Below, in pieces: positions 44,361 to 45,584 of a DNA stretch of 49,104 bases (position 1 is the first letter of the stretch; every line of letters begins with the position of its first letter). Source of the DNA: Actinomycetes bacterium (GTDB taxonomy: Bacteria > Actinomycetota > Acidimicrobiia > Acidimicrobiales > Ilumatobacteraceae); the NCBI GenBank assembly GCA_025359865.1, contig JANYDH010000088.1:1-49104 (forward strand). Direction: 5' to 3'. The notes below the pieces were generated by a model. That model had not been told where the DNA came from, did not search any database, and saw only the letters and a program-made list of their open reading frames with translations. The position numbers and the translations under genes were made by a program.

Positions 44361-45584
44361 TCACGCCAGCAGGCGGTCCTCGAAGGGGTAGTCGTTCATG
44401 ATCTCGACTCCGGTGTCGGTGATCAGGAGTTGGTCTTCGAGTTTGACGCCCTGGCTGCTGGCGTTCGAGCCGATGTAGCTCTCAACGCAAAACACCATGC
44501 CGGGCTCGAACGTGTCATCGAGCGGGTAGGCCACGCCAGGGGTGTGGAAGACGAGGTTGGGGTATTCGCCGATCATGCCGAGGCCGTGACCGATGCAGTA
44601 GTAGCGGCTATCGCGGTGTGCTTCGGGAACGGGCCAGGCGCTGCGGGCGACTTCTTCGAAGGTGACGCCGGGGCCGATCAGCGAGACGTTGTGACGGAGT
44701 TGCTCGTAGGCGCGGCCGTAGAGGGTGCGCTGTTGCGGGGTGGCAGGGCGGTCGCCGGCGAGGAAGGTGCGCGAGAAGTCGGCCGAGTAGCTCTCGAACG
44801 CGACAGCGTCGGTGTCGATGCACACGAGGTCGCCGTCTTGGATCACCCGCGTGCCACATTCCTGAAAGTAGGGGAAGGTGTTCGGGCCACTCTGTAGCAG
44901 CCTCGTTGAGACCAATTCGCCGTGGCCTGCCAGGAGGCCACCGACGAACCGGCTCCACAGATCAATCTCGGTCATGCCCGGCCGCAACGCCGCTTCCATC
45001 GCGCTCACCGCGTCAACGGTGCGACGCGTCGCTTCGCGGATGTAGGCGATCTCCAATGGCAGCTTCACCCGGCGGGTGCGGCTCATCACGACATCAGCAT
45101 CGGTGATGGCGAACCCCACGGTGCGCAGAGCGTCGACTGCGGGGAACGGGAAGCTGTCGATCGCCAGTCGGCCTGGCTCGCCGAGTTGCTCTCGCACCAG
45201 CGCCGCAATCTCACTTGCCATCGCCGCGCACTCGTCGGCCACGAAGCCATTGCTGCTGACGTAGCTCAGCCCATGGGCGATGCGCACCTCGTCGATGGTT
45301 GGGAGGTCCTTGGTCAGGTGCTCGCCCCCGACGTAGTCGAACAGCGTGACCGGCCCCTCGGCGAATACCAGCAGATAGCGGGCGGGGACGCACAGGTTGA
45401 AGATCGTCATGTTCGTCGCGCCGGTGATGTAGAGCACGTTGAAGGGATCGCGCATCAGCATCACCGGGATGTCGAACGTCGTCATGAAGCGGCGAGTGTT
45501 TGCCAGCCGCTCGAGGTAGAGCTCATGACGGGTGGTTGGACTGTTGAGATCGATGCCGGGACCAGGATTCGGGTCGGCCGTCAT
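44361..45584 (-). CDS. DddP-like M24-family metalloenzyme
   Basis: 407 residues. It has the pita-bread fold of M24 aminopeptidases with six metal-ligand candidates: D257, D259 (LVCIDTDAVAF), D269 (SADFSRTF), H333 (CIGHGLGM), E368 (FCVESYIG) and E383 (VKLEDQLL). The stretch STRLLQSGPNTFPYFQECGT, RVIQDGDL and the closing LITDTGVEIMNDYPF resemble what I recall of DddP, the M24-like DMSP lyase of marine bacteria, more than prolidase. DddP splits dimethylsulfoniopropionate into dimethyl sulfide and acrylate. A DMSP role is only a proposal: Xaa-Pro dipeptidase or creatinase-like activity remains possible. ATG 45584 has GATGCT 6 nt upstream. Confidence 0.75.
   Translation of the reverse strand: MTADPNPGPGIDLNSPTTRHELYLERLANTRRFMTTFDIPVMLMRDPFNVLYITGATNMTIFNLCVPARYLLVFAEGPVTLFDYVGGEHLTKDLPTIDEVRIAHGLSYVSSNGFVADECAAMASEIAALVREQLGEPGRLAIDSFPFPAVDALRTVGFAITDADVVMSRTRRVKLPLEIAYIREATRRTVDAVSAMEAALRPGMTEIDLWSRFVGGLLAGHGELVSTRLLQSGPNTFPYFQECGTRVIQDGDLVCIDTDAVAFESYSADFSRTFLAGDRPATPQQRTLYGRAYEQLRHNVSLIGPGVTFEEVARSAWPVPEAHRDSRYYCIGHGLGMIGEYPNLVFHTPGVAYPLDDTFEPGMVFCVESYIGSNASSQGVKLEDQLLITDTGVEIMNDYPFEDRLLA

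Follow-up and report, generated by a model that had tools for sequence, protein, structure and literature searches.

A putative Gly-type member of the DddP-like M24 enzymes encoded in an acidimicrobial genome

Sea surveys count DddP among the most frequent DMSP lyases of bacteria. Its solved structures (RlDddP, 4rzy, 4s00 and 4s01; RdDddP, 4b28) and the curated model NF043017 stand closest to P0001, the protein considered here, and share with it a two-domain M24B fold, a six-ligand dinuclear site and the tyrosine Y366. The structure paper names the six metal ligands of DddP as D295, D297, D307, H371, E406 and E421 (PMC4108388). A review assigns five ligands to M24 peptidases and six to DddP (PMC5395565), so the full six-ligand set is a DddP-like trait rather than one found throughout M24. 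In its treatment of catalysis, the 2014 structure paper describes D377 and Y366 as invariant among the DddP lyases and prefers D377 as the base, with Tyr366 discussed as an alternative (PMC4108388); the later review has an active-site aspartate abstract the proton (PMC5395565). Both residues have been mutated in RlDddP: PDB entry 4s01 is titled as the D377N form and 4s00 as the Y366A form. Where M24 peptidases carry a substrate-binding histidine pair, the review places Phe and Asp in DddP, and it describes the sulfur of DMSP as bound by a Trp and a Tyr whose residue numbers it does not give (PMC5395565); we claim neither Trp262 nor Trp95 as that tryptophan. The ectoine hydrolase DoeA/EutD (6yo9, 6twk) and creatinase (1chm) apply the M24 fold to small molecules of non-peptide or osmolyte type; they match the P0001 model at Z 34.1-34.2 but are 17-20% identical to it in sequence.

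The reading frame and its active site

The window, that is, the whole stretch of 49,104 nucleotides that was analysed, carries the P0001 gene on its minus strand, a strand that the preliminary description had not given. The frame runs from ATG to stop over 407 amino acids, and the plus-strand frame at 44361-45584 is interrupted by stops. The features are as follows; the residue assignments rest on alignment and a codon check.

44361..45584, minus strand: coding sequence of P0001, a predicted Gly-type DddP-like M24B metalloenzyme of 407 aa (ORF, profile and structure-model evidence)
44814..44816, minus strand: codon of metal ligand D257 (RlDddP D295)
44808..44810, minus strand: codon of metal ligand D259 (RlDddP D297, the additional Asp found in DddP-like proteins)
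44778..44780, minus strand: codon of metal ligand D269 (RlDddP D307)
44586..44588, minus strand: codon of metal ligand H333 (RlDddP H371)
44481..44483, minus strand: codon of metal ligand E368 (RlDddP E406)
44436..44438, minus strand: codon of metal ligand E383 (RlDddP E421)
44601..44603, minus strand: codon of Y328 (RlDddP Y366), conserved
44568..44570, minus strand: codon of G339, whose DddP counterpart is the proposed catalytic base D377
44913..44915, minus strand: codon of L224, whose Asp-type counterpart is Trp (RlDddP W262)
44865..44867, minus strand: codon of F240 (RlDddP F278), whose peptidase counterpart is a substrate-binding His

The open reading frame is genuine and not a chance one. 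A single M24 domain is recognised by Pfam Peptidase_M24 (110.9 bits, cut-off 23) and is preceded by an N-terminal domain. Orthologues with 75-80% identity (76-78% in one set of comparisons; 75, 78, 78 and 80% in another, the last from a partial gene) are present in related actinobacterial genomes, namely G019 and G161 of the same taxonomic family and four MAG records labelled Acidimicrobiaceae, Actinomycetota or Actinomycetes, two of which apparently duplicate the G019 and G161 genomes. Over 397 codons shared with the orthologue L056, dN is 0.147 and dS 1.46, a ratio of ~0.10, and the differences at codon positions 1, 2 and 3 number 73, 38 and 195. The gene is under purifying selection. A consensus scan of its surroundings gave neither a sigma-70-like promoter nor a terminator-like site. 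The M24 domain was found at five places in the source genome, and a search of that genome with the P0001 protein returned its own gene as the sole match at E <= 1e-20.

All six metal ligands had been reported as present in the preliminary description, and the alignment agrees: D257, D259, D269, H333, E368 and E383 align to the ligands of RlDddP, with the D259 position invariant across 42 aligned DddP-like rows. At the site of the peptidase histidine pair, P0001 has Phe240, as in DddP, but Gly339 instead of the DddP aspartate. Further differences from DddP are Trp262 to Leu224, Trp95 to Phe62 and His98 to Cys65. A catalytically dead pseudoenzyme, which the missing proposed base might suggest, is very improbable. 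Across all 28 Gly-type rows compared, a set hand-picked as Gly-type in which the constancy of Gly339 is by choice, the ligands never vary, nor do Tyr328, Phe240 and Glu242, and this conservation together with the low dN/dS fits an active metal site.

Relationship to DddP and to the M24 peptidases

Sequence, predicted fold and tree all bear out the earlier view that P0001 resembles DddP rather than prolidase. In a PDB sequence search the DddP structures come first among the solved relatives (212.6 bits, E 7.9e-62), and the best prolidase match reaches 68.2 bits. DddP aligns over its full length at 30-33% identity (33% to RlDddP), including the two stretches first singled out as DddP-like, GPNTFPYFQECG and ITDTGVEIMNDYPF, and the Phe that replaces one peptidase histidine is shared. 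An AlphaFold model built with 42 sequences (pLDDT 94.3) matches RlDddP (4rzy) at a DALI-scale Z of 47.1, with an rmsd of 2.3 over 400 aligned residues and a TMq of 0.92; prolidases are the next family, from Z 35.7. The curated DddP model NF043017 finds P0001 with an E-value of 3.5e-76 and 256.8 bits, below its cut-off of 600. That cut-off is strict, because the Asp-type protein of Pseudomonas MPC6 also misses it (440.5 bits). The best peptidase-type curated model scores 56.3 bits (cut-off 487). Identity as an ectoine hydrolase was rejected on the curated DoeA models (31.2 and 32.5 bits; cut-offs 613 and 575).

Trees of M24 proteins place P0001 in the same way. All were quick trees with SH-aLRT as the sole support measure, from which rows at least 80% identical (larger tree) or at least 72% identical (trimmed tree) had been removed. 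DddP-like proteins form a single clade against the other M24 rows, which come from the same taxonomic class (99% in the larger tree, 100% in the trimmed tree), and P0001 falls within it, not with the peptidases, the placement that would have spoken against the preliminary description. Inside this clade it lies outside the recognised DddPs and groups with Gly-type proteins, in a clade of 16 rows (98%) in the larger tree and of 13 rows (100%) in the trimmed one; the clade of Asp- and Asn-type rows has support of 98% in the larger tree and 69% in the trimmed one. Forcing the P0001 pair to group with other M24 rows carries a penalty of 27.7 log units (p-AU 0.039), a modest rejection. Forcing it among the Asp/Asn-type rows costs 155.6 log units (p-AU 1.9e-40), a p-value that is overstated because the pair is thereby torn from its own Gly-type kin.

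P0001 could instead be a drifted dipeptidase or Xaa-Pro-type hydrolase. It has an M24 domain, some relatives adjoin genes for family-5 (dipeptide-type) binding proteins and enolase-superfamily proteins, and some, plasmid-borne ones among them, are annotated 'Xaa-Pro peptidase family protein'. With Xaa-Pro dipeptidase and aminopeptidase P (M24B) it shares the pita-bread fold and the five metal ligands of the peptidases, but it lacks both substrate-binding histidines and has the extra ligand Asp259, whereas a classical M24 gene in the same genome (L001) has His at both positions. Together with the position of the DddP-like clade and the cost of leaving it, these differences make a drifted peptidase improbable, and identity as a Xaa-Pro peptidase was rejected on the missing histidines, the curated models and the tree.

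The preliminary description had also proposed a possible DMSP lyase, and this part of it does not hold up well. P0001 could be a functional lyase if Tyr328, the counterpart of the Tyr366 that the structure paper discusses as an alternative base (PMC4108388), replaced Asp377; the conserved ligands and tyrosine, a predicted fold nearest to DddP and an AcuI-type enzyme over its cut-off in the source genome would be in keeping with this. Against it stand Gly339 in place of Asp377, Leu224 in place of Trp262, the position outside the recognised DddPs and the low NF043017 score, although the Asp-type MPC6 protein, from a BCCT/Fe-ADH/MMSDH cluster, likewise misses the threshold at 440.5 bits. No DMSP gene was recognised next to the P0001 gene. 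Such neighbours need not be informative on a DMSP role, as the active dddP of a scallop symbiont is described beside nuo and atp operons (PMC10989825). On sequence grounds, DMSP lyase activity of P0001 appears unlikely.

We favour, at a probability of roughly 0.55, a Gly-type dinuclear-metal enzyme of the DddP-like M24B branch that would act on a small zwitterion other than DMSP. The two metals would hold the substrate carboxylate, as has been proposed for DddP, and Tyr328 or a metal-bound hydroxide might, with Asp377 gone, take the proton or attack the bond. Gly339 and the lost tryptophan would leave a pocket of different shape. By analogy with its relatives, the substrate may be an osmolyte of the onium or betaine-like kind or a derivative of a cyclic imino acid, and the gene would serve the source organism as a stand-alone catabolic gene.

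Two residue types and their gene neighbourhoods

The residues that set P0001 apart from DddP divide the whole family. Removing the 25 of 156 DddP-like sequences that had no six-ligand set left 131, with duplicates counted. Residue 377 (RlDddP numbering) is Gly in 87, Asp in 39, Asn in 4 and Ala in 1. Trp262 is present in 39/39 Asp-type and 4/4 Asn-type rows and in 0/87 Gly-type rows, duplicates again included. For a comparison of columns, rows at least 90% identical were dropped (131 to 90), and Trp262 was then found in 34/34 Asp-type and 0/52 Gly-type rows; the four commonest letters at this position in the 52 are Tyr (40), Phe (6), Leu (4) and Val (1). Trp95 was considered as a second marker and is less clean: it occurs in 3/87 Gly-type rows and is missing in 1/39 Asp-type rows and, in a second sample, in 3/17 Asp-type ones. 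Trp262, taken from the column comparison, was therefore used as the marker.

The second sample was drawn from the class of G203 (Vreelandella), where 16 of 274 genomes have matches at E <= 1e-50, at 24 places. Seventeen are Trp-Asp, seven are non-Trp-Gly and none is mixed; at least 3 of the 24 genes had been seen previously. The checked DddPs, solved or annotated (RlDddP and genes of Loktanella, Paracoccus and Oceanisphaera), are all Trp-Asp, as are seven genes 71-89% identical to RlDddP in 18 searched genomes. The Oceanisphaera gene (Aeromonadaceae, annotated DddP) is of the Asp type with Trp262 at 54.9% identity to RlDddP, and Oceanimonas presumably belongs to the same family, Aeromonadaceae. 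Oceanimonas DddP2 is described as a divergent active DddP (PMC10989825). A small Asn377 group (L106, L124 and L041, from Reinekea, Saccharospirillum and a genome of the source organism's taxonomic family) keeps Trp262, has Asn in place of Tyr366 and adjoins a HalD-like gene.

In a tree built without the marker columns, the change between Trp262 and other letters occurs once, and position 377 changes three times. The root of the DddP-like tree is unsure, and with 69% support for the Asp/Asn clade in the trimmed tree the trees are compatible with either a gain or a loss of the aspartate. Members of the Gly-type clade of P0001 beyond its own orthologues are proteobacterial and actinobacterial and 44-54% identical to it. 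Among them are the proteins of Leisingera, Lentibacter, Yoonia and Comamonadaceae, which fall in the same 13-row clade (100% SH-aLRT) at 48-54% identity and likewise have Gly at 377 and no Trp262. In the open-licence PMC literature searched (DddP2, the isolate names of the nearest MAGs, M24 and betaine catabolism) we found no description or assay of Gly-type enzymes. We file P0001 as a putative member of a Gly-type branch of DddP-like M24 enzymes that is uncharacterised as far as this literature search reached.

Judged by eye, the P0001 gene is flanked on one side by two ORFs, one DUF4262-like and one metallo-beta-lactamase-like, and on the other by a PIN-domain pair, an aldehyde dehydrogenase (assigned by family model) and an SRPBCC-like ORF. 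Several toxin-antitoxin-like pairs (PIN and ribbon-helix-helix ORFs, and a GNAT pair) were also seen by eye between 37025 and 46294 of the window. Near the close orthologues of P0001, none of 13 neighbour families sought is present, so the substrate class suggested here rests on relatives at most 54% identical.

Those relatives have more telling surroundings. The neighbour counts that follow include many related Pseudomonas and Halomonadaceae, many loci end at contig ends, and the MMSDH probe used in them picks up other aldehyde dehydrogenases. Within 7.5 kb of 71 Gly-type genes, a HalD-like 2-oxoglutarate oxygenase (PF23169) occurs 25 times, 23 of them directly adjacent and on the same strand, and an OpuAC betaine-type binding protein and a family-5 binding protein occur 14 times each; the corresponding counts for 27 Asp-type genes are 1, 0 and 0. 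The P0001 gene itself adjoins neither such an importer gene nor a HalD-like one. Conversely, a DMGDH/GcvT-type protein is found near 14/27 Asp-type genes versus 1/71 of the Gly type, and MttB near 7/27 versus 3/71. HalD-like genes adjoin 3/3 Asn-type genes and the one Ala-type gene. Loci with the HalD-like gene beside the M24 gene include L071, L076, L128 and L166, and one HalD-like copy searched against the PDB had no relative at E <= 0.01.

Within the clade of P0001, Lentibacter and Leisingera have M24, SBP_bac_5, enolase-superfamily (MR/MLE) and Ldh_2 genes in a row, and the PDB entry nearest to the Lentibacter Ldh_2 protein is a delta1-piperideine-2-carboxylate reductase. In Comamonadaceae (L065) MttB lies directly upstream of the Gly-type gene, and it is at most 0.9 kb from Gly-type genes in L065, L129 and L167. 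The P0001 gene differs from these in having neither such a row with transporter, MR/MLE or Ldh_2 genes nor an MttB neighbour. On S. meliloti pSymA, the Gly-type gene is grouped with isochorismatase, ABC transporter, MR/MLE and Ldh genes. Asp-type genes have contexts of their own. One on a Pseudomonas plasmid has a Rieske-type oxygenase upstream and directly precedes a BCCT transporter, and genes for methylmalonate-semialdehyde dehydrogenase and Fe-ADH lie ~5-7 kb away; we take BCCT, Fe-ADH and MMSDH to be the gene kinds dddT, dddB and dddC. In Parasedimentitalea, the Asp-type gene lies between FAD oxidoreductase and MttB genes, near sarcosine oxidase. The contexts of both types point to catabolism of imported small osmolytes without naming the substrate of P0001, and the differing neighbours of the Gly-type groups suggest that Gly-type enzymes may have several substrates.

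A broader and more tentative proposal is that the Gly type could be a separate, widespread class degrading betaine-like (N-onium) or related osmolytes, within which DddP might have arisen by gaining Trp262 and Asp377, and that E-value surveys may count both. We regard this as possible but doubtful.

The source genome and dddP surveys

A DMSP-cleaving enzyme was at first thought to point to a marine or salt-adapted habitat. DddP-like genes are spread over Sinorhizobium symbiotic plasmids, soil Caballeronia and Pseudomonas, halophiles and marine bacteria, and a marine habitat is thus not to be inferred from P0001; a search of the source genome for BCCT transporters gave no match. The nearest MAGs carry RH- and RE- sample names, which we take to denote a freshwater reservoir; a search of the open-licence PMC literature gave no paper with these names. 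The source genome does encode an AcuI/YhdH-type protein (399.4 bits against a cut-off of 297, which this family also exceeds in 2 of 14 controls) and four MttB-family methyltransferase genes (G000:C174, C169 and C159), the latter a hint of quaternary-amine metabolism. A 145-aa cupin of this genome (L170:263-700, minus strand; G000:C207:371-649) has a partial DMSP_lyase domain (PF16867, 53.1 bits, cut-off 27) and no NCBIfam model at E <= 1e-5. Its motif HxHxxxExY resembles the metal and catalytic residues given for DddK (PMC10686828). To judge from these sequences, the AcuI-type, MttB and cupin genes may fit some DMSP metabolism in the source genome.

Some Actinobacteria make DMS from DMSP, and in 2018 no functional ddd gene was known in them, according to the account in PMC6309047. 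A Gly-type protein is not likely to be the answer to the question raised there. We searched 198 sampled genomes of Acidimicrobiia, the source genome included, and found DddP-like genes at 18 places in 12 of them, at 184 bits or more (the next best place scores 104); 5 have Gly at position 377, 1 has Asn and 12 have Asp. Several of the twelve Asp-type genes, among which are L039 and L042-L050, lie beside DMGDH/GcvT and MttB genes, and the twelve are better candidate DMSP lyases in Actinomycetota than P0001. Since the class holds both types, some of the 'dddP' genes described from Acidimicrobiia MAGs of the Mariana Trench (PMC7494906) may be of the Asp type.

The same distinction bears on dddP counts. 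Surveys have used E-value cut-offs of 1e-30 (PMC8520302) and 1e-50, the latter with 40% identity for MAGs (PMC7494906), and their methods as described then apply trees, residue checks or assays, with some cut-offs set per gene (PMC8520302, PMC7494906, PMC7039863). The NCBI DddP model finds each of the 28 scanned Gly-type proteins at E <= 1e-50, whereas the surveys used models of their own. P0001 itself, at 33%, would fail the 40% identity of PMC7494906 against an RlDddP reference. One such survey gives dddP a prominent place among sediment bacteria of Pseudomonas and Mesorhizobium, and it names Leisingera too (PMC7039863). Among our 80 contig loci, all 8 Pseudomonas genes and the Leisingera gene are Gly-type, while two further genes of that Leisingera genome are Trp262-Asp377, one of them 82% identical to RlDddP; both types are present in Mesorhizobium, and a Pseudomonas plasmid carries an Asp-type gene. 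Environmental DddPs are reported with key residues largely conserved, and two of them as active (PMC8520302).

Gly-type proteins that fall within survey E-value cut-offs could thus inflate dddP counts and be mistaken for DMSP lyases, and residues 377 and 262 offer a simple filter. The split between Gly and Asp types also makes the origin of DMSP cleavage within an M24 family testable.
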